Assembly (NCBI GenBank): GCA_018000995.1
Contig: JAGNIU010000018.1
Coordinates: 1 to 64,000 of the forward strand
DNA length: 64,000 nt
Direction of reading: 5' to 3'
Source of the DNA: Bacteroidia bacterium
Lineage (GTDB): Bacteria > Bacteroidota > Bacteroidia > B-17B0 > Aurantibacillaceae
Below, one piece after another: positions 18,453 through 38,568 of the stretch. The notes under the pieces are model-generated. The model saw nothing but the letters and a program-made list of their open reading frames with translations. It made no database searches and was not told the DNA's origin. Positions within the stretch are counted from its first letter, which is position 1. Every line of letters starts with the position of its first letter. A program made the position numbers and the translations under genes.

Positions 18453-19532
18453 ATGCGTAAAGTAATAGTGTTCGGTTTTTTGGCTTTCTCAACTGTTGTT
18501 TCCGGCCAAATAGCAAAATATAGCAACGAGTTTTTAAACGTTGGGGTTAGCGCCCGCGCAATGGCTATGGGTAATGCCAATGTTTCATCGGTTAATGATG
18601 TTACGGCAGGTTACTGGAATCCATCAGGATTATTGTATCAACAAAGTAATTTACAATTAGGTTTAATGCACGCCGAATATTTTGCAGGTATCGCAAAGTA
18701 CGATTACATCGGCGCTTCAAAACGTATCGATAGTAATAGCGTAGCCGGAATTTCGTTTATTCGTTTTGGTGTAGATAATATTCCGAACACATTAGAATTA
18801 GTGGATGCAAATGGTAATGTTGATTACTCTCGTATTAAATCATTTAATGCGGTAGATGCTGCAGTTTTAATTTCTTACGCCCGCAACATGCAAAAAGTAA
18901 AAGGACTAAAACTAGGGGGTAATTTTAAAGTTATCCGTCGTAAGTTAGGTGAGTTTGCCGGTGCGTGGGGTTTTGGTCTAGATTTAGGCGCTATGTACGA
19001 TTATAAAAAATGGCATTTCGGTGTAATGGGCAGAGATATTACCGGAACGTTTAATGCATGGACTTATAATTTAACCGAAGACGAAAAAAATACTTTGGCT
19101 GTAACTGGAAATGAAATTCCAACCAACTCAGTTGAAGTTACTGTTCCGAAATTAATTTTAGGAGCTTCCCGTCAGTTTTTAGTTTGGAATAATCGCATCT
19201 CCATTTTAGCTGAAGCAAATTTTATAAACACTTTTGATGGTAAACGTAACACAGTTATAAAAACAAAAACCTGGAGTATGGAACCAAACATGGGAACAGA
19301 AATTGGTTATAAGAACATTGTATTTTTAAGAGCAGGTATTGGTAATATTCAAAAAGCATTAAATGCTAAAGGCGATGCTTTTGTTACAACCTTTCAACCA
19401 AATATTGGAGCAGGGGTTAAATACAAAATTTTTGCTCTTGATTATGCCTTTACAGATATTGGTGATAGATCCATCGCTTTGTATTCTCACATTATCTCAC
19501 TCAAAATCGATATCAATAAAAAGCCCAAGTGA
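18453..19532 (+). CDS. porV2: PorV2-type outer-membrane protein of the type IX system
   Basis: 359 residues. The signal peptide MRKVIVFGFLAFSTVVSG precedes QIAKYSNEFLNVGVSARAMA and VSSVNDVTAGYWNPSGL, which are typical of the PorV/LptO branch called PorV2. The rest is beta-strand rich (FadL-like barrel). PorV shuttles T9SS cargo from the SprA translocon to the PorU sortase. The pairing with the next gene, a PorU2-type sortase, supports this assignment. The stop TGA overlaps the GTG start of that gene, so expression is coupled. Confidence 0.85.
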   Translation: MRKVIVFGFLAFSTVVSGQIAKYSNEFLNVGVSARAMAMGNANVSSVNDVTAGYWNPSGLLYQQSNLQLGLMHAEYFAGIAKYDYIGASKRIDSNSVAGISFIRFGVDNIPNTLELVDANGNVDYSRIKSFNAVDAAVLISYARNMQKVKGLKLGGNFKVIRRKLGEFAGAWGFGLDLGAMYDYKKWHFGVMGRDITGTFNAWTYNLTEDEKNTLAVTGNEIPTNSVEVTVPKLILGASRQFLVWNNRISILAEANFINTFDGKRNTVIKTKTWSMEPNMGTEIGYKNIVFLRAGIGNIQKALNAKGDAFVTTFQPNIGAGVKYKIFALDYAFTDIGDRSIALYSHIISLKIDINKKPK

Positions 19533-22500: not shown

Positions 22501-24556
22501 TACCAATAAACATGGCTGGGGACAATCTCACTTCTTCCAATTTAAAAACGATGCTTATCAGTTTGTAAAATACAAACGACCGATAAGACAATTCACTTTT
22601 GAAAACGATAAGTCATCTTTGTTTTGCACTACTCGTAAGACTGTTCTGCCAACCGATTTCGCTAATATAATTTATTCAATTAACGGTTCGGTGAAACATA
22701 CCTATTGTTGTACATTGGATGGATGGACAATAGCTGTGTTCGATTCTATATCCGGGCAACCATGGCAGTCGAATAAGAATGTATTTTCAGCTCCTGTTTT
22801 TGCGCCGGAAGGAAATTGTCTTTGTGCGTATATACCGCAGGCATTATATGCTTATGATTTCGGTGGCGGTCTAAGCGCTTGTCCAATGACCCCAAATTGG
22901 CAGACTACTTTAGGGAATTTTATTAATTCTATACCCCCCAACAATATGATATTAGCATACTCTATTCAAACTCATATGTCATCCACCTTTACTAATACTT
23001 TGTATACGGCTTTCGAAAGTTTTGGAAGTGCAAATATCAGAACGGTAAAAGATACAACGCCGATGATTATTTTCGGCCGCAAAGGTGGAGCAATTGGAAC
23101 TGCTAATGAAGTTATTTCTCCTAACAGCATTGGTCCAGTAAGTTTAAACGATACTATAAAAACAAGATGGAATAATGGATTCGTAGCTTCTGAATTAATT
23201 GGTCCGGGTTATAAATGGAATAGTTTTCATTGGAAAGTTAAAAGTTTAGATGCAGCTGCAGGCGATACAACTATTGTGAAAATTGTGGGCTACAAATCAA
23301 ATGGAACTATTGATACTTTAGTAACCTTCACAGAAGATAGTTTAAATGTGTTGGATTTGTATAATTATGCCGACGCCAATGTGTATCCATATTTAAGATT
23401 GGTAGCTTTTAAAAAGGATAATATCCATCGCACGGCACCACAATTAAAAAATTGGTATGTATTGTACGAGGAAGCACCGGAATGCGCTATCAATCCTAAA
23501 AAAGGATTTGTGGCCATTAATGATACTTTGCAGGAAGGTGATAATGTAACATTAGTTTTACCAATAGAAAATGTGGGAATCGTTCCGTTTACGGATAGTT
23601 TGGTAGTAACGTATTGGATTGAGGATGCCAATCGCGTTAATAATTACTTACCACAAAAAATGAAAGCCAAACCTTTTGCTGCGGGTGCGATTATTTTGGA
23701 TTCTATAAAAATCAATACTTATTTGTATCCCGGTAATAATGCTTTATGGGTAGATGTGAATCCACCACAAAATAGTAAATACCAAAAAGAACAATATCAT
23801 TTTAATAATATAGCACGTTATCCTTTTTCGGTTAGTAAAGATATTACCAACCCCTTATTGGATGTAACATTTGATGGGATAAGAATTATGAATGGGGACA
23901 TAGTTTCTGCCAAACCTCACATTTTAGTAAATTTAAAAGATGAAAATAAATTCTTAGCCTTAAACGACACTAGTGCCTTTAGAGTGTTTATAAAAAAGCC
24001 AAGCGATTTAAGCGAGCAACGTATTTATTTTGCCAACGGCTTAGTATTTACGCCTGCACAATTACCAGGCAACAGTTGCAAAATAGAATACGATGCTATT
24101 TTGCCTGAGGACGGTAAACATGTTTTAATTGTACAAGCCACCGACAGAAGTAATAATATTTCGGGCGCCGTTGATTATAGAATTACGTTTGATGTTATTA
24201 ATAAATCAACCATCACACAAGTTATAAATTATCCTAACCCATTTAGTACATCCACCCGTTTTGTATTTAATTTGACAGGAAGTGAAGTGCCTGAAATGTT
24301 TAATATACAAATCATGACCATCACCGGTAAAATTGTAAAAACAATAATGCGTGATGAATTAGGTCCGCTGCATGTAGGTAGAAATATTACCGAATATGCT
24401 TGGGATGGTAAAGATGATTTTGGAGATAAATTAGCAAATGGAGTTTATTTGTATAAAGTTCAAACTAAAATAAACGGACAAAGCATAGAACATAAATCTA
24501 CCGAAGCTGATGGTTTTTTTACAAAGGAATTGGGTAAAATGGTTATAATGAGATAA
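19529..24556 (+). CDS. porU2: PorU2-type gingipain-like (C25) sortase of the type IX system
   Basis: 1675 residues, starting at GTG 19529 overlapping the porV2 stop. A signal peptide (MKRIIHTMLFLALAVSLKAQ) leads into an N-terminal region with KYYKFPIGKTGFYRID. The C25 caspase-like fold spans about residues 415-770, with catalytic His647 in TFFGHGSYTG and Cys677 in FIANSCYSGN, followed by GDPALRIAAG. The 30-residue His-Cys spacing fits gingipains. Several Ig-like domains follow, and the C-terminus has a FlgD/T9SS-like segment (INYPNPFSTSTRFVFN, LANGVYLYKV). It is longer than PorU (about 1100-1300 residues), as expected for PorU2. PorU-type proteins cut the sorting domain off cargo and attach it to A-LPS; the precise role of PorU2 is not established. 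Confidence 0.88.
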   Translation: MKRIIHTMLFLALAVSLKAQVYSNEWINFSNKYYKFPIGKTGFYRIDSLALANSGINVSSLNPKNFQLFIKGKEVPLFIYGESDNMLNDTDYVEFYAERNDGQFDSSLYYNITYLPNRYISLFNDTIYGFLTWNNLTTNKRIIQETDTATSSYTPAPYFYTERICTGRNEYNFVEEFYSNTSDPRYTQAEGYGIFLNEGQVYNTNISPANIYTQTALPIQIDIKFSGSNNDVNISGNYEHEIKGVIYDASNIPVQLFDTLFRGYKHFKYSFTVQSNTLGPASNIEVSSIINPLFTGVDNRTCLHSIYVKYPQLPDVGGTGIYNLFVDDNTVLSKSYLRITSVNTGTNNTILFYDLSNNKKIEVKVVSGTAHLLVPNSGSQKACFMSAESIVINVPKLNPVNQTGFFVNHKTMDDSAFVIVTPQKFSTQAADYAAYRQTALGGSHDVIVAVMEELTDQFAYGIQKHPTALRNFFRFLIDSLPTPPKNIFLTGKSVQHRDMYASSPGWAKSLIPSMGIPSSDNLLTAALKTSDYFVPEIPIGRLAVQSVSDYTLYLAKVQQHEAPLTGPSETHDWKKHVLHFAGGTDLGQQLLFQSFLNTYKGIIQDTAYGGKVYDFKKTTTAPIQITISDSVKGHFSYGTSLVTFFGHGSYTGFDQAIDDPNAYNNAGKYPLFIANSCYSGNIHTHDIFSNSEKFVLANQKGSIAFLAASSLGFVSPLHNYTESIYRGLSHLKYNKGIGEIIQNACILNNFGDQQQFTNVDMTLHGDPALRIAAGVLPDYFINNSRVFFDTKSYVDSIGISIDISNMGRARKDTFIVRIERYFPTGDSVTIFKNIPAPYFRDTLQFYTPIDFTRGFGLNKFKVIVDAYSGITESNENNNSTSGTVDVFIQGGDLVPIYPYKYAVIPSTPTITLKASTSNPFATTRNYRLQLDTTDLFTSPLTTTLISSSGGVIEWTVNLPFADSTVYYWRVSKDSLNAQETFVWRESSFQTITNKHGWGQSHFFQFKNDAYQFVKYKRPIRQFTFENDKSSLFCTTRKTVLPTDFANIIYSINGSVKHTYCCTLDGWTIAVFDSISGQPWQSNKNVFSAPVFAPEGNCLCAYIPQALYAYDFGGGLSACPMTPNWQTTLGNFINSIPPNNMILAYSIQTHMSSTFTNTLYTAFESFGSANIRTVKDTTPMIIFGRKGGAIGTANEVISPNSIGPVSLNDTIKTRWNNGFVASELIGPGYKWNSFHWKVKSLDAAAGDTTIVKIVGYKSNGTIDTLVTFTEDSLNVLDLYNYADANVYPYLRLVAFKKDNIHRTAPQLKNWYVLYEEAPECAINPKKGFVAINDTLQEGDNVTLVLPIENVGIVPFTDSLVVTYWIEDANRVNNYLPQKMKAKPFAAGAIILDSIKINTYLYPGNNALWVDVNPPQNSKYQKEQYHFNNIARYPFSVSKDITNPLLDVTFDGIRIMNGDIVSAKPHILVNLKDENKFLALNDTSAFRVFIKKPSDLSEQRIYFANGLVFTPAQLPGNSCKIEYDAILPEDGKHVLIVQATDRSNNISGAVDYRITFDVINKSTITQVINYPNPFSTSTRFVFNLTGSEVPEMFNIQIMTITGKIVKTIMRDELGPLHVGRNITEYAWDGKDDFGDKLANGVYLYKVQTKINGQSIEHKSTEADGFFTKELGKMVIMR

Positions 24557-25826: not shown

Positions 25827-26038
25827 GTTTTCCCGGTTTTCGCATACAAAAAAGGCCGAAATATCTCATTTCCTCTCTTTTTACCATAATAATGGCTTAA
25901 TTTGAAATTAACGAAGGATTTACATTTAGTTAACGTCTAACAGATCTATAACCTTAGTTCTATTATTAAAAGGTGAGTATTGTTTATTGAGTTGAAATCT
26001 AAACGGGTTTTAGTTATGAAAAGGCTTGTTATGAGTCT

Positions 26039-26070
26039 TTTTCAATAAATTAATAATTTACTTATCTTTA
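26039..26070 (+). promoter_or_regulatory. Possible promoter of the CotH-VTC cluster
   Basis: TTTT (26039-26042), 20 bases, then TATCTTTA (26063-26070) matches the Bacteroidota -33 TTTG / -7 TAnnTTTG pattern with one mismatch in each element and correct spacing. The ATG of the arylsulfotransferase gene is 28 bases downstream. The 272-base spacer 25827-26098 holds no other gene and is the largest gap before the 26.1-38.6 kb cluster, so a promoter is expected here. Confidence 0.35.
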
Positions 26071-26098
26071 GTTAATATTACTATTAAACTAATTTAAC

Positions 26099-27787
26099 AT
26101 GCGTAACGTAAAATTTACATTTACTCTTTTCTTAGCTTTAGTATTAACCTTTACAATTAAAGCTCAGCAATGGAATGGCTTAACTTATTATGGTAACAGT
26201 GGGTCAAACTTTGGTTACTTAATCGATACCAACGGAACTACCGTTAAAACATTCAGTTATTCGGGTTTTGGCACCAACGGATATTCAACTCACATGATGC
26301 CCGGGGGCGATGTGTGGCGCTCGGTTTCTAATAGTTCAGGTAATATTTTAAGCGGTGGGGGCATGACAGGCCGTATTCAAAAATGGAGTTACAACAACGT
26401 TTTATTGTGGGATTACACTTACTCTACTTCAACGTATTGCTTACATCACGATCATTGCCCGTTACCAAATGGGAATGTTTTAGTAATTAGTTATGATGTA
26501 AAAACAGCTACAGATGCAAATCTTGCTGGCGCTACAAGTTCTATTACTATTTGGTCGGAAAAAATTATGGAATTAAAACCGGTTGGTACTAATTCGGCTA
26601 TTGTGGTTTGGCAATGGAATGTTTGGGATCACTTAGTTCAGAACTTATATCCAACAAAAAATAATTATCAAACCTCTATCGTAAATAATCCCGGTCGTTT
26701 CAATATAAATTACCAAACCGCTAAAGATTGGTTGCACATGAATGGAATTGATTACAATCCGGTGCTCGATCAAATTGCTTTAAGTACTCATAATTTAAAT
26801 GAGTGGTATATTATTGATCATAGTACCACAACTGCAGAAGCTGCAACTTCAACCGGAGGAAATGCCGGTAAAGGTGGAGATTTATTATACCGTTGGGGAA
26901 ATCCGGCAGCATATCAGGCAACAGGAACAAAAATTTTGGATGTTACGCACGATGCACATTGGATCCCGGAAGGATGTCCAAACGAAGGGTTCTTAACGGG
27001 ATTAAATAATAAAGGTGCAACAGGACCAAAAACAACAGTGGATAATATTTCTATTCCGCGCGCTGATTATAATTATACAATTGCTTTAGGTAATGCGTAT
27101 ACACCGGCAACATTTAATAACCGCCATACATCTTCGGGTTACACCAGCAATATGGGAAGCGTTGATCAATTTCCAAATGGAAATCAAATGATTTGTTTGG
27201 CAATGGTGGGAAGTATTTATGAAATTAATGCAGCAGGAACTGTACTATGGACAAAAAGCACTGGCGGTTCAACGCCTCAGTCTCATCGTTACACAACTTG
27301 TTTTATAAATAACGCAGCACCTCCTCAACCAACTGTTTCATTAAGTGGAAGTGATTTATTGTCGACAAGCGCCGTTTCTTATCAATGGTATGTAAATGGA
27401 AATTTAATTCCCGGCGCTACTTCACAATTATATACGCCAATTCAAAATGGAATTTACGTTGTTAAAACAACCGATAGTAACGGTTGTGTGTATGTTTATT
27501 CAGCCGGATATAATTACGCTTTAATTACAGGAATAAAAGGATTAGTTGTTAATAACGATATTAGTATTTATCCGAATCCAACAAATGGCTTGGTAAGTAT
27601 TGCGACTAATTTATTAAAGCATGAAAATTATACTGTAACTGTTTTTGATAGTTTCGGTAAACTTTTAATAAATGTAGAGAATACAAATACTTTAGATTTA
27701 ACTGAATTGCAGAATGGTGTTTATTTCATTTCAGTAATAACTGAAAGCGGAACAGTATTAAATAAAAAAATCGCCTTAGCGAAATAA
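26099..27787 (+). CDS. Secreted arylsulfotransferase (ASST)-family protein with T9SS sorting domain
   Basis: 562 residues with signal peptide MRNVKFTFTLFLALVLTF. The body is a WG/WN-rich propeller with HHDHCPLPNGNVLVISYDVK (about residues 120-140) and WLHMNGIDYNPVLDQIALST (about 205-225), typical of the ASST family, which moves sulfuryl groups between phenolic compounds through a histidine. DVTHDAHWIPEG (about 281-292) is another conserved His segment. The C-terminus (ISIYPNPTNGLVSIATN, LQNGVYFISVIT) is a type A T9SS sorting domain, so the protein should be exported and probably surface-bound. It is the first gene of the long cluster. The biological sulfate donor and acceptor are unknown. Confidence 0.85.
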   Translation: MRNVKFTFTLFLALVLTFTIKAQQWNGLTYYGNSGSNFGYLIDTNGTTVKTFSYSGFGTNGYSTHMMPGGDVWRSVSNSSGNILSGGGMTGRIQKWSYNNVLLWDYTYSTSTYCLHHDHCPLPNGNVLVISYDVKTATDANLAGATSSITIWSEKIMELKPVGTNSAIVVWQWNVWDHLVQNLYPTKNNYQTSIVNNPGRFNINYQTAKDWLHMNGIDYNPVLDQIALSTHNLNEWYIIDHSTTTAEAATSTGGNAGKGGDLLYRWGNPAAYQATGTKILDVTHDAHWIPEGCPNEGFLTGLNNKGATGPKTTVDNISIPRADYNYTIALGNAYTPATFNNRHTSSGYTSNMGSVDQFPNGNQMICLAMVGSIYEINAAGTVLWTKSTGGSTPQSHRYTTCFINNAAPPQPTVSLSGSDLLSTSAVSYQWYVNGNLIPGATSQLYTPIQNGIYVVKTTDSNGCVYVYSAGYNYALITGIKGLVVNNDISIYPNPTNGLVSIATNLLKHENYTVTVFDSFGKLLINVENTNTLDLTELQNGVYFISVITESGTVLNKKIALAK

Positions 27788-27805
27788 TTTATAAAAGAAT
27801 AGAGT

Positions 27806-28816
27806 ATGAAAAAAATAATTGTAGTATTAGTTTTAGTATTAGCTTGTACAAATCTATCAGCAAAAAAAGTAAGATTTGCCGTCGATATGGGAACTCACAC
27901 GATTAGTCCGATGGGTGTACATTTAATGGGCGATTTCCAAGCATATCTTGGTTTACCATTAGGCGATTGGCAGTCGAACACCTTAAGACTATGGCAAGTG
28001 GGCACTTCAACTGTTTATGATACAGTTTTAGATTTACCTGCTTTTGCGAAATACGAATTCAAATTTATAAGTGGTGATCAAGGTTACGAGGCAGAGTTTG
28101 TTCCAAACGTATCGCGTGTAGAACCTTTTTTATTTAACGATAACCGCTGGATATATCTGGATTCTTTATCTAATGACACAACTTTTGTAGGCGCGATTCC
28201 TTTTTCAGGAACTGCACCCGCAGGTAAATCCCTAATTCGTTTTATGGTGGACATGTCAAGCGTTGGAACTATTTCACCGAATGGTGTTCATGTTGCTGGC
28301 ACATTCCAATCTTCTGTATGGAACACAAAGGATAATATTCTGTATAGTTTTGGTTCAGGTATTTATGAGATTATAGCTTATGCTGTGAATGGAAATTATA
28401 GTTTTAAATATTATAACGGAAATGTTATTGGTAATACTGAAACAGTTCCGACGCCTTGTGCAACAACGGGTAATCGTACCCATAATTTGCAAAAGGATAC
28501 TATTTTGGAAACAGTTTGTTTTAGTGCTTGTGTAAGCTGTGCATTAGCCGGTATGAAAGAATACACCACCGATATATCAGGCATCAAAATATTCCCTAAT
28601 CCAACAGCTTCTTCTTCAGTTATGGAATTTGAAAACACTGAAGTTAATTACAATGTGGCTATTATGGATTTAACCGGACGGGTTTTAAAGACTTATTATA
28701 GTTCTAATGGAGAAAGTATTACTATTAAAAAAGACAACTTAAGTTCAGGTTTGTATTTTGTGAATGTAATTGATTCAAGAAATGCAACGGCCTCGTCCAA
28801 ATTAATTATCGAATAA
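27806..28816 (+). CDS. Secreted protein with two starch-binding-like modules and T9SS sorting domain
   Basis: 336 residues with signal peptide MKKIIVVLVLVLACTNLSA. Two homologous modules start at KVRFAVDMGTHTISPMGVHL (about residue 21) and LIRFMVDMSSVGTISPNGVH (about 138). Each begins with a VDM segment and ends with aromatic-rich strands, as in CBM/AMPK-like carbohydrate-binding Ig folds often found in Bacteroidota surface proteins. The C-terminus (IKIFPNPTASSSVMEFE, LSSGLYFVNVID) is a type A T9SS sorting domain. It is tightly spaced (18 bases and 10 bases) to its neighbours, so it is probably co-transcribed with the sulfotransferase and CotH genes. Ligand unknown. Confidence 0.75.
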   Translation: MKKIIVVLVLVLACTNLSAKKVRFAVDMGTHTISPMGVHLMGDFQAYLGLPLGDWQSNTLRLWQVGTSTVYDTVLDLPAFAKYEFKFISGDQGYEAEFVPNVSRVEPFLFNDNRWIYLDSLSNDTTFVGAIPFSGTAPAGKSLIRFMVDMSSVGTISPNGVHVAGTFQSSVWNTKDNILYSFGSGIYEIIAYAVNGNYSFKYYNGNVIGNTETVPTPCATTGNRTHNLQKDTILETVCFSACVSCALAGMKEYTTDISGIKIFPNPTASSSVMEFENTEVNYNVAIMDLTGRVLKTYYSSNGESITIKKDNLSSGLYFVNVIDSRNATASSKLIIE

Positions 28817-28826
28817 GTTTTTTCTA

Positions 28827-31100
28827 ATGAGATTTAAATTTTATTTTTTTATTGTACTCTTTTGTTTGGCTGGAAGTAATCTTACCAGCCAAACTTTTTA
28901 TAACACTTCTGCCATTCAAAAAATTGAAGTTCAATTTGCACAGGCTAATTGGGATTATATGCTGGATACTGCCAAAATGGGAAAAGAAAACTACATTATG
29001 GCCCAATGGGTAAAAATTAATGGGGTTTTGTTGGATAGCGTAGGTGTAAAATACAAAGGCAATAGCTCATTCGATTCTACTTACAAAAAAAATCCTGTAC
29101 ACATTGAGTTAGATACTTACAAAAATCACTCGTATCAAGGTTATCAGGATATTAAATTAGGAAATGGTTATTCCGATCCCTCTATCATCCGTGAAGTATT
29201 AGCTTATGATATTCTTAAAAATTACATGCATTGTCCGCAAGCTAATTTCGCTCAGCTTTACATAAACGGAAATTACATTGGCGTGTATTCAAATGCAGAA
29301 TCAATTAATAAAAAATTCTGCTCCGATCATTTTTATACGTCTAACAACATATTTGTAAAGTGTAATCCAATTGTAATTCCAAGTACAAATTCAAAAAGTA
29401 ATTTGCGTTACATTCCTTTAGCAGATAGCAGCGGATACACGAATTATTACGAGTTAAAATCAAATTACGGATGGAATCAATTAAAAAATTTATGTGATTC
29501 TGTTACTAATAACGCCAACAGCATTCCTAATGTTATAGATTTAGACCGCGCCATTTGGATGCTAGCGTTTAATAATGTGGCCGTTAATTTAGATAGTTAT
29601 AGCGGTGCGTTTTGTCAGAATTATTATTTGTATAAAGATAACACAGATCATTTCAATCCAATTATTTGGGATTTGAATATGTCTTTTGCGGGATTTCCTC
29701 ATTTAGGAGTTTCAAATTCAAGTATGGCAAGTTTAACAATACCACAATTACAACAATTGCCAAGCGCTATTCATAACACCGACCAATATTGGCCGCTCAT
29801 TAAAAACATTATGAGTAATAATATGTATAAACGCATGTACACCGCTCACATGAAAACTATCGTTAACGAAATGTTTGTGAGTAATTATTATTCAACAAAA
29901 GCTGCAGCATTACAAACTGTTATTGATACCGCAGTTCAATCCGATGTAAATAAATTTTATTCATATCCGCAATTTCAAAACGGATTAACAGCCAATGTTT
30001 CGGTGGGAAGTTATTCTGTTCCCGGTATTAGTACTTTAATGTCGGCAAGAATTCCGTTTTTACAAGCTACTGCCGATTTCACTTATACAGCGCCTGCAAT
30101 TACTTCAGCTTCTGCTGCAAATACGCCAAGTTTAAATGCAGCTGTTACTATTACTGCAAATGTTACCAACGCAAATAGCAATGCAGTTTATTTAGGATAC
30201 AGATTCGCCGTAGCAGAAAAATTTAAGCGTATTTTAATGTTTGATGATGGTTTGCATAATGATGGGGCGGCAAGCGATAACAAGTTTGGTGTTACTTTTA
30301 CTATGACGGCTTCTTCAGCACAATATTACATTTATGCCGAGAATAACAATGCGGGTATGTTTGCTCCCGAGCGCGCCGAACACGAGTTTTACACTTTGGT
30401 GGCTGTTCAAACCGCTTCTGTTGGTCAGGTAAAAATAAACGAATTCTTGGCCGATAATCAAAATGATGTGGTAAATGAAATGTTTCAGTACGAAGATTGG
30501 ATTGAACTCTATAACACTACATCATCACCTTTAGAATTGTCAGGATTATTTTTAACGGATAATTTTTCTGTACCAACAAAATTCACAATCCCACAAAATA
30601 CCATTATACAACCGAATGGTTATTTAATTATCTGGGCTGATGAAAATCCTTCAACACCTTCTTATGTACACTCTAATTTTAAACTAGCTGCAGGTGGTGA
30701 GCAATTAATGCTAAGCGGACCAGGTGGAGTAGTACTCGATAGCATTTCATTTGGTGCTCAGGTTACTGATAAATCTATGGCGCGTTGTCCGGATGGTGTT
30801 GGTACATTTAGCACTTCAACTTTCCCAACTTTTAAATTATCGAATTGTGCTATTGGTGTTAATGAATTGAATTCTGATGTTAATAGCGCTTCAGTGTTCC
30901 CAAACCCTGCTAATGCTTATTTACACGGACAAAGCACCTTAAATTGTGAGCAAAAACTAGAGGTTTTTAATCTATTAGGTCAAGTAATTTTTTCGACCAC
31001 CTTTTTAAACCAATTTGAAATTTCAACGTCAAATTGGGAGCCTGGTCTTTATTTTGTTCATATTGATAATAGTGTAGTAAAAATTGTAGTTAATCATTAG
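28827..31100 (+). CDS. Secreted CotH-kinase / lamin-tail protein, copy 1
   Basis: 757 residues with a signal peptide. The CotH-type atypical kinase fold covers about residues 30-430: VGVKYKGNSS (73-81), YQDIKLGNGYSDPSIIREVL (106-125), then the two presumed catalytic and metal-binding aspartates in NLDSY (Asp256) and WDLN (Asp282). CotH of Bacillus phosphorylates spore-coat proteins with ATP and Mg. A beta-sandwich (about 430-520) and a lamin-tail domain (QVKINEFLADN to about 665, with EDWIELYNTTSSPLELSG) follow. The C-terminus FPNPANAYLHG and EPGLYFVHID is a T9SS sorting domain. It is the first of three tandem paralogues, 12 bases before the next. Export of a kinase fold is notable; the substrate and outside ATP source are unknown. 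Confidence 0.88.
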   Translation: MRFKFYFFIVLFCLAGSNLTSQTFYNTSAIQKIEVQFAQANWDYMLDTAKMGKENYIMAQWVKINGVLLDSVGVKYKGNSSFDSTYKKNPVHIELDTYKNHSYQGYQDIKLGNGYSDPSIIREVLAYDILKNYMHCPQANFAQLYINGNYIGVYSNAESINKKFCSDHFYTSNNIFVKCNPIVIPSTNSKSNLRYIPLADSSGYTNYYELKSNYGWNQLKNLCDSVTNNANSIPNVIDLDRAIWMLAFNNVAVNLDSYSGAFCQNYYLYKDNTDHFNPIIWDLNMSFAGFPHLGVSNSSMASLTIPQLQQLPSAIHNTDQYWPLIKNIMSNNMYKRMYTAHMKTIVNEMFVSNYYSTKAAALQTVIDTAVQSDVNKFYSYPQFQNGLTANVSVGSYSVPGISTLMSARIPFLQATADFTYTAPAITSASAANTPSLNAAVTITANVTNANSNAVYLGYRFAVAEKFKRILMFDDGLHNDGAASDNKFGVTFTMTASSAQYYIYAENNNAGMFAPERAEHEFYTLVAVQTASVGQVKINEFLADNQNDVVNEMFQYEDWIELYNTTSSPLELSGLFLTDNFSVPTKFTIPQNTIIQPNGYLIIWADENPSTPSYVHSNFKLAAGGEQLMLSGPGGVVLDSISFGAQVTDKSMARCPDGVGTFSTSTFPTFKLSNCAIGVNELNSDVNSASVFPNPANAYLHGQSTLNCEQKLEVFNLLGQVIFSTTFLNQFEISTSNWEPGLYFVHIDNSVVKIVVNH

Positions 31101-31112
31101 TTAATTTATATC

Positions 31113-33347
31113 ATGAAAAGTCTAAAATTCACATTGTTCTTTCTGGTACTTATTATCGCAAATAATTTAAAGTCGCAAGCATTTTACGACGTAACAAAAA
31201 TTCAAAAAATAGAAATTCAATTTTCTCAATCTAACTGGGATTACATGTTAGATACCTCAAAAGCTGGTAAAGATAATTACGTCTTATCGCAGTGGGTAAA
31301 AATAAATGGCGTGCAATTTGATAGCGCAGGCGTTAAATACAAAGGCAACAGTTCCTACAATGTTAACAACGCCAAAAACCCTTTTCATATTGAATTAGAT
31401 TTTGTAAAAAATCAGGATTATCAAGGCTACAAAGATATTAAGTTAAGCAACGGTTTTAAAGATCCGTCATTTGTACGTGAGGTATTATCGTATAATATTT
31501 TAAATAAATACATGCCTTCACCACTTTCTAATTATTGTCAGGTGTACGTAAATGGTGTTTACATTGGTGTTTACGCGAACACTGAAGCTGTTTCAAAAAC
31601 TTTCGTTGATAGCAGATTTTATTCAAAGAACAATTCTTTTTTCTTTATGGATAATTTTAATTGTCCACTTAAGTATAACGGACCGGATAGCGCTTCTTAT
31701 ACAACGTATACCATTAAATCTACAACAGGCTGGAAGGCCTTAATTAATTTATGCGACACGTTGGTAAATAAACCAAGTTTTATAGAATCTATTTTAGATG
31801 TCGACCGCTCATTATGGATGATGGGATTTGATAACGTATTGGTAAACTTAGATAGTTATATTGGAGCACCAACCCACAATTATTACGCTTACCGCGATGA
31901 TAACGGTCGTTTTAATCCAATTGTATGGGATGTTAACGAAGCGTTTGGAAATTTCACGAACGCAGGTGGCGGTCCGCCTTTAACTTTAGCGCAAGAACAA
32001 GTGATGTCGCCTTATTTACACCTCACCGATCCTAACTGGCCATTAATTCAAAATCTATTGGCAAACCCAATGTTTAAGCGGATGTACATTGCGCACATGC
32101 GTACTATTGTGAATGAAAATTTCGCAAATGGATCTTACACAACAACCGCTTATAATTTACAAAGTGTAATTGATACAGCCCTTCAATCGGATCTAAATAA
32201 ATTTTATACTTATTCCCAATTTACTGTAAATGTAAATACAAACGTTACTTCAGGTCCGTCGACTATTGCAGGATTAAGTGTTTTAATGGGACCGCGTGTA
32301 AATTATTTACAAAGTTCAACAGATTTTACTTTAACACCACCAACTATTACTTCAGCAACAGCAGCTACTACACCAAGTTTAAATGCAGCTGTTACAATTA
32401 CAGCAAACGTAACCAATGCCAATAGCAATGGTGTTTATTTAGGCTACAGATTTGCCGTAACACAACGATTCAATCGTGTTTTAATGTATGATGATGGTTT
32501 AAATAATGATGGTGCAGCTGGCGATAATGTGTTCGGTGCCACTTTTACTATGACAGCTTCATCAGCACAGTATTATGTTTACGCAGAAAATAACAATGCC
32601 GGTATGTTTGCTCCTGAGCGTGCGGAATATGAATTTTATACTTTAGCAGCAATTCAAACTGCAAGTGTTGGTCAGGTGTATATAAACGAATTTTTAGCTG
32701 ATAATGCAGGTGATGTAAGTAATGAAACGTTTCAATTCGAAGATTGGATCGAATTGTATAATACTACTTCTTCACAACTCGAATTGTCCGGTTTGTATTT
32801 AACTGATAATTATTCGGCACCAACTAAATTTCCTTTTCCACAAAACACACTTATACCTGCCAATGGCTATTTAATTATTTGGGCTGATGAAAATCCATCT
32901 ACTGCATCTTATTTGCATTGTAATTTTAAATTATCTGCTGGAGGCGAACGATTAATGCTAAGTAACGGAAGCGGAACAGTTTTAGATAGTATTACGTTTG
33001 GTCCGCAAACAACCGATAAATCAATGGCACGTTGTCCGGATGGCGTGGGTTCGTTCTCAACATCGGCTTTTCCTTCGTTTAAATTATCAAATTGTGCGAT
33101 TGGTGTTAATGAGTTAAACAATAATGGTAATCAGATAAGAGTATATCCAAATCCTGCTAAAAATTATTTTGTGGTTAGGAGTAATACAAATAAAGAAGAA
33201 AGTATTACTGTGTATAATACCATTGGTGAACAAATTTATAAAGGCTCGTTTACTAATGAAACAGTTATTAATACATCCACATGGGTGTCGGGTATTTATT
33301 TTGTAAGAACGGATTATGCAGTTAAAAAAATAATCGTGAACCATTAG
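31113..33347 (+). CDS. Secreted CotH-kinase / lamin-tail protein, copy 2
   Basis: 744 residues with the same architecture as its neighbours: signal peptide, CotH fold with GVKYKGNSSYN, Asp247 in NLDSY and Asp273 in WDVN, beta-sandwich, lamin-tail domain and T9SS sorting domain (IRVYPNPAKNYFVVRS, VSGIYFVRTD). The beta-sandwich (TPSLNAAVTITANVTNANSN) is nearly identical to copy 1, whereas the C-terminal TTDKSMARCPDGVG(S/T)FSTS block is shared by all three. Both aspartates of the kinase centre are kept, so the copy appears functional. It differs most from copy 1 in the loop at residues about 175-200, near the presumed substrate cleft. Confidence 0.88.
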   Translation: MKSLKFTLFFLVLIIANNLKSQAFYDVTKIQKIEIQFSQSNWDYMLDTSKAGKDNYVLSQWVKINGVQFDSAGVKYKGNSSYNVNNAKNPFHIELDFVKNQDYQGYKDIKLSNGFKDPSFVREVLSYNILNKYMPSPLSNYCQVYVNGVYIGVYANTEAVSKTFVDSRFYSKNNSFFFMDNFNCPLKYNGPDSASYTTYTIKSTTGWKALINLCDTLVNKPSFIESILDVDRSLWMMGFDNVLVNLDSYIGAPTHNYYAYRDDNGRFNPIVWDVNEAFGNFTNAGGGPPLTLAQEQVMSPYLHLTDPNWPLIQNLLANPMFKRMYIAHMRTIVNENFANGSYTTTAYNLQSVIDTALQSDLNKFYTYSQFTVNVNTNVTSGPSTIAGLSVLMGPRVNYLQSSTDFTLTPPTITSATAATTPSLNAAVTITANVTNANSNGVYLGYRFAVTQRFNRVLMYDDGLNNDGAAGDNVFGATFTMTASSAQYYVYAENNNAGMFAPERAEYEFYTLAAIQTASVGQVYINEFLADNAGDVSNETFQFEDWIELYNTTSSQLELSGLYLTDNYSAPTKFPFPQNTLIPANGYLIIWADENPSTASYLHCNFKLSAGGERLMLSNGSGTVLDSITFGPQTTDKSMARCPDGVGSFSTSAFPSFKLSNCAIGVNELNNNGNQIRVYPNPAKNYFVVRSNTNKEESITVYNTIGEQIYKGSFTNETVINTSTWVSGIYFVRTDYAVKKIIVNH

Positions 33348-33350
33348 ACT

Positions 33351-35591
33351 ATGAAAAAGATTAAATCAATTCTTTCGTTTTTGTTTATTGGTTCGGTGTT
33401 GTGCTTAAAATCACAAACATTCTATGATCTTAATACCATTCAACGCATTGAAATTTCTTTATCTCAATCTAATTGGGATTATATTCTGGATACTGCAAAA
33501 GCCGGAAGTGATGGTTATCTTATGTCGGTGTGGGTAAAAATTAATGGCGTACAATTTGATAGTGCAGGCGTAAAATATAAAGGCAATAGCTCTTATAATC
33601 CAAATAACGTAAAGAATCCACTGCACATCGAGCTCGACCATTTTAAAAATCAAAATTATCAGGGCTTTAAGGATATTAAACTAAGTAATGGCTATAATGA
33701 ACCTTCATTTGTTCGTGAGGTTCTGTTGTATTCATTGTTTCAGAATTATTCAGAAGCATCAAGAGCCAATTTTGCACAGGTTATAATTAACGGACAATAC
33801 ATGGGCGTTTATACCAATGTAGAAGCTATTACCAAAACTTTTTTAGATGATCGTTTTTCTTCTGATAAAAATACTTTTGTATTTGCTGATAATGGTGGTT
33901 GTAATTTAAGATACAAGGGCGCTGATACAACTTTGTATTATACACCATACACTTTAAAGTCGGATGCGGGTTGGACGCATTTAATGCAGCTGTGCGATAC
34001 ATTAAGAAATAATATTTCTGTTATTGAAAACACTTTGGATGTTGACAGAACGTTATGGTGGTTAGCTTATACCAATGGATTTGTAACATTGGATAGTTAC
34101 TTAGGTAATAGCACGCACAACTATTATATGTACCGCGATCACAACAAGCGCTTTAATCCGATTATCTGGGATTTAAACGGAGGTATCGGAATTTTTAGTA
34201 AAGCAGATTTCGGGCCATCGTTAACTATTCCTCAAATGGAGAATTTGTCGCCGATGTTGCATGCTAACGATACGATGTGGCCGCTGGTAAAAAACTTAAT
34301 GGCAGTGCCAATGTATAAACGGATGTACATAGCGCATTTAAAAACTTTAATGAACGAGAATATCGCTAACGGAACTTATTCTGTTTTTGCACAATCTATA
34401 CAAGCAATTGCAGATACAGCTGTGTTTTCTGACCCTAATAAATTTTGTACTTATACTCAGTTTCAAAGTAGCTTAACAAATACAGTTGTGTTAGGGCCAA
34501 AAACCGTTCCTCCCATTATACCATTCATGAATGCGCGTTTGGCATATTTAAACACAACGCCTGAGTTTTTAGCAGTAGCTCCAACTATTACCAATGTTTT
34601 ACCTTCAAACACATCTCCAAGCTTAACCACTAATGTTTTTATTACTGCGGATATAACTACAGTAACAGCAGCTTATATTGGTTATAGATATTCTCCTCTT
34701 GATAGATTTAAACGTGTAGCGATGTTTGATGATGGATTAAACGGTGATGGTGCTGCAGGCGATGGAAAATTTGGAGTATCAGTACCGGTTAGTAGTTTGC
34801 AAGTGCAATATTATATTTATGCAGAGAATGCAAATGCAGGAATGTTTTCACCACAAAGAGCAGAACACGAATATTATCTTTTAAATGCTTTGGGTAGTCC
34901 AACCATTGGGCAATTAGTTATAAATGAATTTTTGGCTGACAATGTAGGCGATGTAAGCAATGAAACGTTTCAATACGAAGACTGGATTGAATTGTATAAC
35001 ACAACCAGTAATCCTCTCGAATTAGCAGGTTCTTTTTTAACGGATAACTTTTCGTCGCCAACTAAATTTCAATTTCCTGCTGGGACAATTATTCCCGCAA
35101 ATGGATATTTAATTATTTGGGCGGATGAAAATCCATCAACAGCAACTTACGTTCATAGTAATTTTAAACTATCGGCTGGTGGCGAACAATTAATGTTACG
35201 AAACGCAAGTGGAGTGGTGTTAGATAGTATTACTTTCGGTCCGCAAACTACCGATAAATCAATGGCGCGTTGTCCGGATGGTGTGGGTTCATTCTCAACA
35301 GCTGCTTTTCCTTCTTTTAAATTATCAAACTGTGCTATTGGTGTTAATGAGTTAAATGGGAATGAAACTATTGTAAAAATATTTCCAAATCCGGCGCATA
35401 ATTATTTTGTAGCTCGTAGCAGTAGTAGTAGTAGTAAATCAGAAAACTTAGTTGTGTATAATACTTTAGGAGAAGAAACGTATAAAACAAGTTTTATGAG
35501 TGAAACCACAGTAAACACTTCTTCATGGGCATCTGGAATTTATTTTGTTCATTGTGGTTCTAAGGTTAAAAAAATAGTAATTTCACATTAA
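33351..35591 (+). CDS. Secreted CotH-kinase / lamin-tail protein, copy 3
   Basis: 746 residues with the same domain order as copies 1 and 2. Kinase-centre residues are Asp248 in TLDSY and Asp274 in WDLN. The middle beta-sandwich (TSPSLTTNVFITADITTVTA) has diverged, whereas the lamin-tail domain (GDVSNETFQYEDWIELYNTT) is close to copy 2. The T9SS domain is KIFPNPAHNYFVARS with ASGIYFVHCG, and it carries a short serine run from an AGT trinucleotide repeat at 35418-35435. The gene starts 4 bases after copy 2. The three copies probably arose by tandem duplication and were partly homogenised afterwards. Confidence 0.88.
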   Translation: MKKIKSILSFLFIGSVLCLKSQTFYDLNTIQRIEISLSQSNWDYILDTAKAGSDGYLMSVWVKINGVQFDSAGVKYKGNSSYNPNNVKNPLHIELDHFKNQNYQGFKDIKLSNGYNEPSFVREVLLYSLFQNYSEASRANFAQVIINGQYMGVYTNVEAITKTFLDDRFSSDKNTFVFADNGGCNLRYKGADTTLYYTPYTLKSDAGWTHLMQLCDTLRNNISVIENTLDVDRTLWWLAYTNGFVTLDSYLGNSTHNYYMYRDHNKRFNPIIWDLNGGIGIFSKADFGPSLTIPQMENLSPMLHANDTMWPLVKNLMAVPMYKRMYIAHLKTLMNENIANGTYSVFAQSIQAIADTAVFSDPNKFCTYTQFQSSLTNTVVLGPKTVPPIIPFMNARLAYLNTTPEFLAVAPTITNVLPSNTSPSLTTNVFITADITTVTAAYIGYRYSPLDRFKRVAMFDDGLNGDGAAGDGKFGVSVPVSSLQVQYYIYAENANAGMFSPQRAEHEYYLLNALGSPTIGQLVINEFLADNVGDVSNETFQYEDWIELYNTTSNPLELAGSFLTDNFSSPTKFQFPAGTIIPANGYLIIWADENPSTATYVHSNFKLSAGGEQLMLRNASGVVLDSITFGPQTTDKSMARCPDGVGSFSTAAFPSFKLSNCAIGVNELNGNETIVKIFPNPAHNYFVARSSSSSSKSENLVVYNTLGEETYKTSFMSETTVNTSSWASGIYFVHCGSKVKKIVISH

Positions 35592-35605
35592 TTTATAATA
35601 CGAGT

Positions 35606-36019
35606 ATGAAAACAAGCATAGTATCTTTTAAAAACATAGTTGCCATACTGGCCATTACATTAATTTTCGTTTCCTGCAAAAAGCCGGCTGGTGAGGGAGG
35701 AAAAGTGAGTATTAAAGGAACGCTTTGGGCAGAAGACTGGAATGGCTCCTTTACCGTAAAGAATGGCGAATACGCAGCCTATGATGAAGATGTTTATATA
35801 ATTTATGGAGATGATGTAAGTTATAGCGATAAAACGAAAACTAATTATAATGGCGAGTACGAGTTTAAATATCTCCGTAAAGGGAAATACAAAATTTATG
35901 TTTATTCTAAGGATAAAACCTTGACGTCTCCTTCAGGAGATGTTTCTATTGTGAAGGAAGTGGAAATAACAGAAAAAAAGGGAGTAAAAACTGTTGATCA
36001 AATTATCATTTACAAATAA
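35606..36019 (+). CDS. Small lipoprotein with carboxypeptidase-regulatory-like fold
   Basis: 137 residues. The N-terminus MKTSIVSFKNIVAILAITLI ends in a lipobox (FVSC, Cys25), so it should be lipid-anchored. The remaining about 110 residues form a beta-sandwich like CarboxypepD_reg/SdrD B-like domains (KVSIKGTLWAEDWNGSFTVK, TNYNGEYEFKYLRKGKYKIY). It lies 14 bases after the third CotH copy and before a small exported repeat protein. It may be a periplasmic or outer-membrane accessory of the cluster; no direct evidence for a substrate. Confidence 0.75.
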   Translation: MKTSIVSFKNIVAILAITLIFVSCKKPAGEGGKVSIKGTLWAEDWNGSFTVKNGEYAAYDEDVYIIYGDDVSYSDKTKTNYNGEYEFKYLRKGKYKIYVYSKDKTLTSPSGDVSIVKEVEITEKKGVKTVDQIIIYK

Positions 36020-36021
36020 GT

Positions 36022-36498
36022 ATGGTTAAGAAACTAATAATCGCTTTACTAATTACAACTTCTGTTACGGCATTTTCTCAAAAGAAAAAGGAAGTAAAAA
36101 AGTATAAAATTAAAGGCCTCACCGAGACGGAAACTACCAATGGAAAAACTATTTTCGATGGTAAAAAAACGTTTGATGCTAATGGCGAAGTAGCAGAAGA
36201 ATTTAATTACGATAAAGACGGCACTGTTAAAAGCAGTCACAAATACAAATACAACTCAGAAGGTGATGTGATCGAAGATTGTGAATACGATGCTAAAGGT
36301 CAATTAAAAGATAAACACGTTTTTAAGTATAATAGTTTGGGAGAGAAAATAGAAGAATCAACTTACGATAAAGATGGAAAGCTGACTAAAAAAAGTATTC
36401 ACACCTACGATGCGAAGGGATTAAAATCGGAACGTAAAACGTACGATGGGGCTAATAATTTAATTTCTGTAAAAAAATACATTTACGAGTATAAATAA
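36022..36498 (+). CDS. Small exported repeat protein (YD/RHS-like repeats)
   Basis: 158 residues with signal peptide MVKKLIIALLITTSVTAFSQ. The mature part is a run of about five 20-22-residue repeats of the form (Y/F)D.(D/K)G....K.YKYN..GD, resembling YD/RHS-type or MORN-like beta-hairpin repeats, rich in lysine, tyrosine and aspartate. There is no membrane segment. It begins 2 bases after the lipoprotein and ends just before the VTC gene, so it belongs to the same operon. The function is unknown. A highly charged periplasmic repeat protein next to a polyphosphate polymerase and secreted kinases could be a binding partner or substrate, but this is speculation. Confidence 0.7.
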   Translation: MVKKLIIALLITTSVTAFSQKKKEVKKYKIKGLTETETTNGKTIFDGKKTFDANGEVAEEFNYDKDGTVKSSHKYKYNSEGDVIEDCEYDAKGQLKDKHVFKYNSLGEKIEESTYDKDGKLTKKSIHTYDAKGLKSERKTYDGANNLISVKKYIYEYK

Positions 36499-36499
36499 A

Positions 36500-37273
36500 T
36501 TGAAATCGGTAGCCGACATATTAAATTCATTTGAATCCATCACTTTAGCTGAAATGGATAAAGCTAAATTAATGGATAGAACTGATACTAAATTCACGTT
36601 TTCGGAGGAGAATTTGAAAAAAGTGCTCAGCGAAGTGAAGTCGGATTACAAAATTCTAGAAATTGAAAATTGTAGGATGTCAACCTATCAAACTTTGTAT
36701 TACGATACAAGTGATTTGAGTTTGTATTTAAAACATCACAATGGTAAATTGAATCGTTATAAAATCCGTCACCGCACGTATGTTGAAAGTAAATTGGGAT
36801 TTTTAGAAGTAAAATTTAAGAATAACAAAGGCCGCACCATAAAAGTGCGTATTAAAAAACAAGAAGTTCCGAAAACTTGGACAGAAGACACCTCCGAATT
36901 TTTAGCAGCTAAAACTCCTTTTAATCCTGAAGTATTGGTGCCAAACATTTGGATTAATTATAAACGGATTACGTTGGTAAACAATGCCAATGCCGAACGT
37001 GTAACGATTGATACGGAATTGGAATTCGTAAATAAAGATTTCACTAAGAAAATGGATAATCTTGTTATTGCAGAAGTAAAACAAGAAAAAAGAGCGGGCT
37101 CAGCATTTTTAGGAGCTATGAAAAAATTCAGAATCAGAGAAGGCTCAATAAGTAAATATTGCTTAGGTGTTGCTTTAACCAATAAAGAAGTCAAGAAAAA
37201 TAATTTCAAAGAAAAAATTTCATCCTTAAACCATATAATTTATGCTGGCAACCATATTACTGCAAATAGCTGA
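36500..37273 (+). CDS. VTC-domain polyphosphate polymerase-like protein
   Basis: 257 residues, starting at TTG 36500 right after the previous stop; a later ATG would remove the first helix. It shows the triphosphate-tunnel features of the VTC domain: MDRTDTKFTFSEENL near the N-terminus, TLYYDTSDLSLYLKHHNGKL, YKIRHRTY, LGFLEVKFKNNKGRTIKVRI and VIAEVKQEKRAGSAF. Yeast Vtc4 uses this fold to make polyphosphate from ATP. There is no signal or membrane helix, so it should work on the cytoplasmic face, probably with the DUF4956 membrane protein whose gene overlaps its 3' end by 32 bases. CotH, VTC and DUF4956 genes are frequent neighbours in other phyla. Confidence 0.85.
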   Translation: MKSVADILNSFESITLAEMDKAKLMDRTDTKFTFSEENLKKVLSEVKSDYKILEIENCRMSTYQTLYYDTSDLSLYLKHHNGKLNRYKIRHRTYVESKLGFLEVKFKNNKGRTIKVRIKKQEVPKTWTEDTSEFLAAKTPFNPEVLVPNIWINYKRITLVNNANAERVTIDTELEFVNKDFTKKMDNLVIAEVKQEKRAGSAFLGAMKKFRIREGSISKYCLGVALTNKEVKKNNFKEKISSLNHIIYAGNHITANS

Positions 37274-37892
37274 TGAAACAGTTGTAACAACAGGCTTCGA
37301 TGCGTTTCAAAAAATCGGAGCTAAACTTGGCTTACGTTTTTTAGTCGACCTTGTTTCTGTATTCGTTTTAATTCGTTTGGTGTATTTTCCAATTTACAAG
37401 CGACGTGAATTATTTTTCACGTATTTCATTTTCAACATCGTTATCTTCTTAATTTGTTTCCTGTTAAATAAAGTAGATTTAAGTATGGGAGCAGCTTTCG
37501 GTTTATTTGCTGTATTTAGCATGTTACGTTACCGTACTGAAGATATCAGCATGAAAGACATGACTTATTTATTTTTAGTAATTGCGATGGGATTAATTTC
37601 AGCTGTTACAAAAATAAAAGGTGCAGAGGATACCGTAGAAAGTTTATTCGTAGTTGCCATAAACGGTGCTATTATTTTGGTGGCTTTTCTTTTAGAAAGT
37701 ACGGTGCTGATGAAAAAGGAAGGTGCGAAAGTAATTATTTATGAAAATATTAATTTAGTGAGTGCAGACAGAGAAGCTGAGCTTATTGCGGATATTAAAT
37801 TACGCACCGGAATTAATGTACATCGCGTAACCATTCAAAAAATAGATTTTTTAAGAGATTCTGCACAAATAAAAATATTTTACTTTGAGTAA
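37242..37892 (+). CDS. DUF4956 membrane protein, partner of the VTC protein
   Basis: 216 residues. Four hydrophobic helices cluster at about residues 35-140 (LVSVFVLIRLVYF, FIFNIVIFLICFLL, AAFGLFAVFSMLRYRTEDIS, MGLISAVTKI). A soluble C-terminal domain with IIYENINLVSADREAELIADI and FLRDSAQIKIFYFE follows. This matches DUF4956, which commonly accompanies VTC-type polymerases; a channel or membrane anchor for polyphosphate is plausible but unproven. The 32-base overlap with VTC implies coupled translation. Its stop overlaps the TTG start of the next gene. Confidence 0.85.
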   Translation: MLATILLQIADETVVTTGFDAFQKIGAKLGLRFLVDLVSVFVLIRLVYFPIYKRRELFFTYFIFNIVIFLICFLLNKVDLSMGAAFGLFAVFSMLRYRTEDISMKDMTYLFLVIAMGLISAVTKIKGAEDTVESLFVVAINGAIILVAFLLESTVLMKKEGAKVIIYENINLVSADREAELIADIKLRTGINVHRVTIQKIDFLRDSAQIKIFYFE

Positions 37893-38568
37893 ACTGTTTA
37901 AATATAGTTTTGTATTGCTTCTGATGATTTCAGTTTCAACTTCGCATGCTCAAGAATTTGAGGATGACGCTGCACTTTGGTTGAATCTTAATCTGGAGAA
38001 AAAAATAAACGATCATTTTGATATCCATTTTTCACATAGTAGTCGTATTAATAATAATGTTTCTCAGTACGGTTTAGGGTATGGTGATATCGGTGTTTCT
38101 TATAAACGCAACGATAATATTAAAGTAATGCTGGATTATGTTCTCCGTCAAAGAAGAAATTTAGACGGTTCTTATGGTACTCGTCACAGAGCTTATTTTG
38201 CAGTGATACTAAAGAAAGAAATTTCCCGTTTTACCTTTTCTTACCGTTACCGTTTTCAAGCCGAGCTAAGAGATTTATATAAAAGCGAAGACGGATTAGC
38301 CCCAAGATATTACGATCGTCATAAAATAAGCGTAAAATATGAATTGAATAAACGTTTTGAAGCTTATGTTTCAGAGGAACTTTATTATCCGTGGTATCAG
38401 GCAAAGAATAAAGGTTTCGATCGCTCAAGAAGTGCAATAGGCTTGATTTACAAACTTTCTAAAAGAAAAAGTATAGAAGGAAATTTCACTTACCGTCACG
38501 AATTAAATGCCTTTAACCGAACTAACCGCGATTTTATTTATAGTCTTACGTACTCTTACGAATTCTAA
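37885..38568 (+). CDS. DUF2490 outer-membrane-like protein
   Basis: 227 residues. It starts at TTG 37885, overlapping the previous stop. A signal peptide (MSKLFKYSFVLLLMISVSTSHA) leads into a beta-strand-rich region with alternating aromatic residues and a terminal aromatic (YSLTYSYEF), typical of a barrel. Motifs such as DDAALWLNLNLEKKINDHFD and HRAYFAVILKKE fit DUF2490. It is the last gene of the cluster and could be the outer-membrane exit for a product of it. The adjacent peroxidase gene is convergent, with only 2 bases between them and no visible terminator. Confidence 0.75.
   Translation: MSKLFKYSFVLLLMISVSTSHAQEFEDDAALWLNLNLEKKINDHFDIHFSHSSRINNNVSQYGLGYGDIGVSYKRNDNIKVMLDYVLRQRRNLDGSYGTRHRAYFAVILKKEISRFTFSYRYRFQAELRDLYKSEDGLAPRYYDRHKISVKYELNKRFEAYVSEELYYPWYQAKNKGFDRSRSAIGLIYKLSKRKSIEGNFTYRHELNAFNRTNRDFIYSLTYSYEF

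Follow-up and report, generated by a model that had tools for sequence, protein, structure and literature searches.

The window analysed here, a 64,000-nucleotide stretch of DNA from an uncultured Bacteroidota bacterium, contains ten open reading frames on the forward strand between positions 26099 and 38568 (Table 1). In order, they encode an ASST-family protein and an X25-like protein, both with T9SS tails, three CotH-LTD-T9SS proteins, a lipoprotein, a YD-repeat protein, a VTC-type polymerase, a DUF4956 protein and a DUF2490 protein. Genes one to eight are separated by gaps of 18, 10, 12, 3, 14, 2 and 1 nt, while VTC and DUF4956 overlap by 32 nt, and DUF4956 and DUF2490 by 8 nt. The ORF coordinates thus bear out the original prediction of ten same-strand genes with spacers of at most 18 nt and several overlaps. 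The ends of the cluster are clear, because 272 nt separate the upstream forward-strand gene from the ASST gene, and the DUF2490 gene is followed after 3 nt by a convergent gene. A sigma-70-type promoter scan, whose model does not cover Bacteroidota promoters, gave fewer matches than shuffled sequence. Pfam and NCBIfam profiles confirmed the domain assignments of the ten genes and agree with the domains first read from the sequence (ASST, three CotH, lipoprotein, repeat protein, VTC, DUF4956 and DUF2490), weakly so for the lipoprotein and the YD protein. A role in anti-phage defence was rejected, as there was no PADLOC match.

Table 1. Features of the ten-gene cluster and its upstream spacer (positions in the window).
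Feature	Position	Strand	Evidence
272-nt spacer, likeliest site of an operon promoter (putative)	25827..26098	.	
ASST-family (PF05935/PF14269) protein with T9SS type A tail	26099..27787	+	Arylsulfotrans 5.5e-11; tail 5.5e-14
Secreted X25/starch-binding-like protein with T9SS tail	27806..28816	+	X25 1.1e-3 (sub-threshold); tail 2.2e-11
CotH-LTD-T9SS kinase-like protein, copy 1	28827..31100	+	CotH 3.5e-47; tree; catalytic motif
CotH-LTD-T9SS protein, copy 2	31113..33347	+	CotH 1.1e-45; 5jd9 match; tree
CotH-LTD-T9SS protein, copy 3	33351..35591	+	CotH 3.4e-43; tree
Small lipoprotein, Ig/carboxypeptidase-regulatory-like	35606..36019	+	weak Pfam matches; lipobox-like FVSC
158-aa secreted YD/RHS-like repeat protein	36022..36498	+	weak RHS/YD matches; directly before VTC
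VTC-type polymerase domain, cytosolic, TTG start	36500..37273	+	VTC 5.3e-27
DUF4956 inner-membrane protein, MgtC-like membrane part and ACT-like cytosolic tail	37242..37892	+	1e-49
DUF2490 outer-membrane beta-barrel	37885..38568	+	DUF2490 9e-23; AlphaFold pLDDT 93.4; Foldseek

A type A T9SS sorting domain (Por_Secre_tail) forms the C-terminus of five proteins (ASST, X25-like and the three CotH). Their N-termini, judged by eye, are hydrophobic and signal-peptide-like, and after several of these putative signal peptides comes AQ/SQ, a pattern often seen in Bacteroidota; PMC5837995 deals with this Q-rule. A SprA_N match (4.6e-159) reveals SprA, and therefore a T9SS, in this genome. The window itself holds further T9SS-related genes, namely a PorP/SprF protein at 12187-13188 and, just upstream of the cluster at 19529-24556, a 1675-aa C25-family (PorU/gingipain-like) peptidase with a FlgD-like end.

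The ASST gene is the sole PF05935 match in this genome and scores 42.5 bits against a curated cut-off of 24.2. Several histidines are invariant among the ASST proteins of 15 relatives, none of them matched to the catalytic histidine, and no sequence match to solved ASST structures was found. The second gene, originally read as a two-module binding protein, owes that reading solely to its X25 match, which falls below the Pfam cut-off; it does travel with ASST and CotH in relatives. In seven relatives, ASST is immediately preceded by two same-strand genes, for a histidine kinase of the LytS type and a response regulator of the LytTR type (L036, L038, L039, L043, L045, L080 and L201; domains checked for L080). 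This pair, which the window does not carry there, is a candidate regulator of the operon.

The three CotH proteins score 162, 157 and 149 bits for PF08757 (curated cut-off 23.8), and copy 2 matches the Bacillus cereus CotH structure 5jd9 in the PDB (2.8e-9). In a tree built on the first 520 residues, the stretch that includes the kinase part, copy 1 clusters with the single copies of relatives and lies closest to the first copy of a congener (G047), and copy 2 with the second copy of that congener. Copy 3, on a long end branch (0.88), was found only here; relatives have one or two copies. Because of these placements, the tripling looks like a recent, nested and local stepwise tandem expansion and not a defining feature of the locus. 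Identity among the copies is 37-80% in blocks of the kinase part and 77-88% over the LTD domain, with direct repeats, which suggests gene conversion or constraint in the LTD. All three copies keep a GVYxxxE motif, an NLD/TLD...WD motif and both catalytic aspartates; the aspartates and GVYxxxE are also kept in many relatives. Asp228 and Asp251 are the inactivating positions in B. subtilis CotH (PMC7821199), and we assigned their equivalents from these positions and from the spacing of 23 residues that the B. cereus chain shows, with copy 2 aligned to the structure. Since the equivalents of both residues are retained, all three copies look active at the sequence level. Copy 3 is perhaps a fast-evolving addition with a different substrate.

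The VTC protein matches PF09359 with 95 bits (cut-off 23) over positions 2-234 of 235, and its profile hits the structures of yeast Vtc2 and Vtc4. R90 and R92 align to Vtc4 R264 and R266 and are invariant in 28 homologues. E192 is also invariant and, while not itself aligned to Vtc4, probably corresponds to E426; R264/R266 and E426 mutated together inactivate the yeast VTC complex (PMC9911596). The protein has neither a signal peptide nor a T9SS tail. Both this genome and 11 relatives encode PPK1, so bulk polyphosphate does not need VTC, and VTC as the sole polyphosphate source was rejected.

DUF4956 is predicted to lie in the inner membrane and has no T9SS tail. Its AlphaFold model, of moderate confidence (pLDDT 76), shows several membrane helices and a beta-alpha-beta-beta tail. 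Searches of the fold against the PDB and viral models gave nothing significant and no full-length structural relative, only weak ACT-type matches to the C-terminal part. The window protein did not match the MgtC profile, and the best intermediate reached 29.3 bits against a cut-off of 31.4. Intermediates do weakly tie DUF4956 to MgtC (1.2e-6 for a protein of L205, 5.4e-4 for one of L206) and to ACT_4 (0.07), in agreement with the description of a streptococcal DUF4956 relative (PMC12345266). A second DUF4956 type, nearer to MgtC, occurs at L205:9515-12300, near a 378-aa CotH and with no VTC nearby. Dismissing weak phylum-level DUF4956 matches as MgtC noise proved wrong for those adjoining VTC (for example in G257, G217 and G177).

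The high-confidence DUF2490 model is an outer-membrane barrel, with an N-terminal helix followed by 11 long strands. By TM-score, the best Foldseek matches were NanC (0.51/0.56) and the barrel of PgaA (TMq 0.53), which are channels for an acidic sugar and a polysaccharide, respectively. As barrels all look alike, this likeness would indicate the location of DUF2490 more than its cargo. Both the modest similarity (TM around 0.5) and a lumen-facing net charge of only +5 count against polyanion export.

In the order to which the window belongs, DUF4956 is present in 56 of 70 genomes. For 60 of these genes, we annotated some 20 kb of surrounding sequence, using profiles built up from the genes of the window, and 52 loci had enough context. 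VTC lies immediately upstream of DUF4956 in 44 of them, and the YD gene at most two genes upstream in 43, its position directly before VTC being conserved. DUF2490 is found in 32 loci and CotH in 20, always with a T9SS tail, and relatives of the lipoprotein gene are present as well. ASST occurs in ten loci, each time followed by the X25-like gene and then CotH-LTD. T9SS-tagged CotH and ASST do, as the original prediction proposed to check by comparing neighbourhoods, recur beside VTC-DUF4956 in relatives. A family search returned 129 CotH genes in the order, of which 29 lie within 12 kb of DUF4956, where 0.7 would be expected from density; owing to contig ends and relatedness these numbers are approximate, yet not by such a factor.

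Other neighbours are also found in the order. YD-VTC-DUF4956 ends a conserved glycosyltransferase/acetyltransferase cluster without CotH in L055, L063, L067 and L081, which suggests a connection to exopolysaccharide like that of Pel loci. YD-DUF4956 ends a glycosyltransferase/FemAB-like cluster in L085, L086, L088 and L090, in genomes without any VTC gene. In L042, L044, L053, L061 and L075, a T9SS-tagged protein of 553-566 aa with DxR...DIYAQ repeats precedes YD-VTC-DUF4956, often at the place of CotH. These exported proteins were considered as hidden CotH and rejected, being repeat proteins.

Among 198 genomes drawn across the phylum, VTC is present in 37, and all 37 carry DUF4956 and CotH. 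Together with the Gram-positive Pel loci (PMC7112168), this upholds the initial statement that CotH, VTC and DUF4956 occur together in other bacteria. CotH is present in 44 of the 161 genomes without VTC (Fisher p = 8e-18, ignoring relatedness). The relation is one-way: VTC implies CotH, and CotH does not imply VTC. The same parts appear in another order in L193, from another class (VTC, DUF4956, DUF2490, ASST-T9SS, X25-T9SS, CotH-LTD). L203 has two tandem CotH-LTD-T9SS genes beside VTC-DUF4956 and L207 has one, and in L196 an X25-ASST-CotH unit lies away from VTC. Across the wider phylum, some CotH proteins (those of L179, L180 and L188) have no T9SS tail. Large upstream genes of L176, L182 and L190 were rejected as CotH. 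The ten-gene arrangement is beyond chance, and the recurrence of the gene combination across the phylum marks it as a real cell-surface system.

We read the ten genes as one envelope unit that would make and export a polyanion, probably polyphosphate judging from the sequences, with CotH and ASST modifying material at the surface; we hold this reading tentatively, with slightly more doubt than belief. Read from the sequence, its parts span the envelope, with VTC in the cytosol, DUF4956, its predicted membrane partner, in the inner membrane, the YD protein, lipoprotein and DUF2490 in the periplasm or outer membrane, and CotH, ASST and X25 at the surface. VTC would polymerise phosphate from ATP and feed the chain through DUF4956, or under its control, much as in yeast, where the polymerase domain passes the chain to a membrane channel of its own. 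The polyanion would then cross the outer membrane via DUF2490, while CotH and ASST may phosphorylate or sulfate surface or matrix material held by X25. The net effect would be a modified cell surface and altered aggregation or biofilm. The tight packing and overlaps, the near-constant YD-VTC-DUF4956 core, the clustering of CotH at DUF4956, the kept catalytic residues of CotH and VTC and the DUF2490 barrel all speak for such a unit. Aggregation phenotypes in Streptococcus intermedius, where the trio of CotH, polymerase and DUF4956 was deleted gene by gene, do so as well: aggregation in one medium dropped by over 50% when DUF4956 or CotH was deleted, and the Pel level changed (PMC12345266). Against it stand the moderate confidence of the DUF4956 model and the lack of an obvious phosphoryl donor outside the cell. 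The proposal of a surface system exported through T9SS stands for CotH, ASST and X25, which carry the tails, and not for polyphosphate itself: with VTC devoid of a signal peptide and DUF4956 placed in the inner membrane, nothing indicates that polyphosphate leaves by this route.

The main rival, which we consider rather unlikely, is that DUF4956 and VTC form a sensor or regulator of phosphate or nucleotide status and not a polymer exporter. VTC would bind or turn over phosphorylated ligands, and the pair would control surface proteins and exopolysaccharide made elsewhere. It is the main rival because of three observations that also weigh against a simple polyphosphate reading: the presence of PPK1, the loss of VTC from four relatives that keep YD-DUF4956 (G002, G003, G026 and G035), and the S. 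intermedius deletions, in which loss of DUF4956 raised Pel, and aggregation and Pel were still present after loss of the polymerase, for which no change was reported (PMC12345266). The MgtC region shared through intermediates and the position of the core at the end of glycosyltransferase clusters in many relatives point the same way. However, the polymerase residues of VTC are invariant, VTC adjoins DUF4956 in most order-level loci, and the outer-membrane barrel and exported partners point toward a transport route.

It is improbable, in our view, that the system only decorates the surface, with ASST, X25 and CotH acting on a surface polymer and VTC-DUF4956 being a loosely associated, co-transcribed phosphate-metabolism module. 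The separate unit of L196 and the many CotH genomes without VTC would fit, but every VTC genome among the 198 also has CotH, and distant classes combine the two parts in differing orders.

As for the missing donor, ATP is scarce outside the cell. Polyphosphate made by VTC-DUF4956 and pushed out could be the phosphoryl donor for the T9SS-displayed CotH, or become attached to surface proteins, which would amount to a self-fuelled extracellular phosphorylation machine. This is a long shot; the finding that every genome with VTC has CotH agrees with it, and the many CotH genomes without VTC mean that such a donor is no general requirement of CotH. Very improbable, too, is that the CotH proteins are pseudokinases with an adhesive or structural role at the surface, comparable to the use of fungal CotH proteins in binding to hosts: CotH here has no known substrate and sits in large LTD/T9SS proteins, with copy 3 evolving fast, but each of the three copies, like many relatives, keeps the catalytic aspartates and GVYxxxE.

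Returning to the envelope unit, several of its parts have known counterparts. The polymerase shares with the yeast VTC complex the VTC domain, the arginines equivalent to R264/R266 (PMC9911596) and a membrane protein, here encoded by an overlapping gene; it differs in having no SPX and no fused TM domain. Unlike the yeast membrane channel, DUF4956 is MgtC-like, with a putative channel role. The CotH proteins belong to the kinase family of the Bacillus spore-coat CotH (5jd9; PMC7821199) and share both catalytic aspartates; they differ in being T9SS-exported, with LTD and sorting domains, and in lying outside a spore coat. The ASST protein shares PF05935 above the curated cut-off with bacterial ASST and differs by its T9SS tail.

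The closest system is a set of accessory genes at the Pel loci of streptococci, clostridia and bifidobacteria, in which CotH, a polyphosphate polymerase and DUF4956 are found together (PMC7112168), at times with DUF4832 or DGC-PDE (PMC7112168, PMC12345266). In a Clostridium perfringens locus, two VTC-domain genes are each followed by a gene named tubulin/FtsZ, and then by CotH (PMC2879425); we would guess that these "tubulin/FtsZ" genes are misnamed DUF4956. The Pel set and the window both have a secreted CotH, the polymerase between CotH and DUF4956, and a DUF4956 with four TM and an ACT-like tail. In the window, two small genes separate CotH from VTC. In contrast to the Pel set, the window has a Gram-negative envelope, T9SS tails and LTD on a tripled CotH, and the additional ASST, X25, YD, lipoprotein and DUF2490. 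No PelG match was found in this genome, and neither was the pelDEADAFG linkage, so Pel was rejected as the target. A 2025 streptococcal study did not find the three-gene arrangement outside Pel loci (PMC12345266), but the trio does exist outside them, in this genome. The original claim that this form was undescribed therefore holds for the T9SS/ASST form, for which we found no description in the literature covered in part, and not for the trio. What is new is the T9SS/ASST/X25/DUF2490 form without Pel; the CotH-polymerase-DUF4956 set itself is already known. That set is thus a wider system, which Bacteroidota also have, in their case with no Pel and with kinases displayed through T9SS, a sulfotransferase-like protein and an outer-membrane barrel. 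The Bacteroidota form gives independent ground for asking what bacterial VTC-type polymerases do, whether DUF4956 acts as a polyphosphate channel or as an MgtC-like regulator, and how kinases outside the cell get their phosphate.
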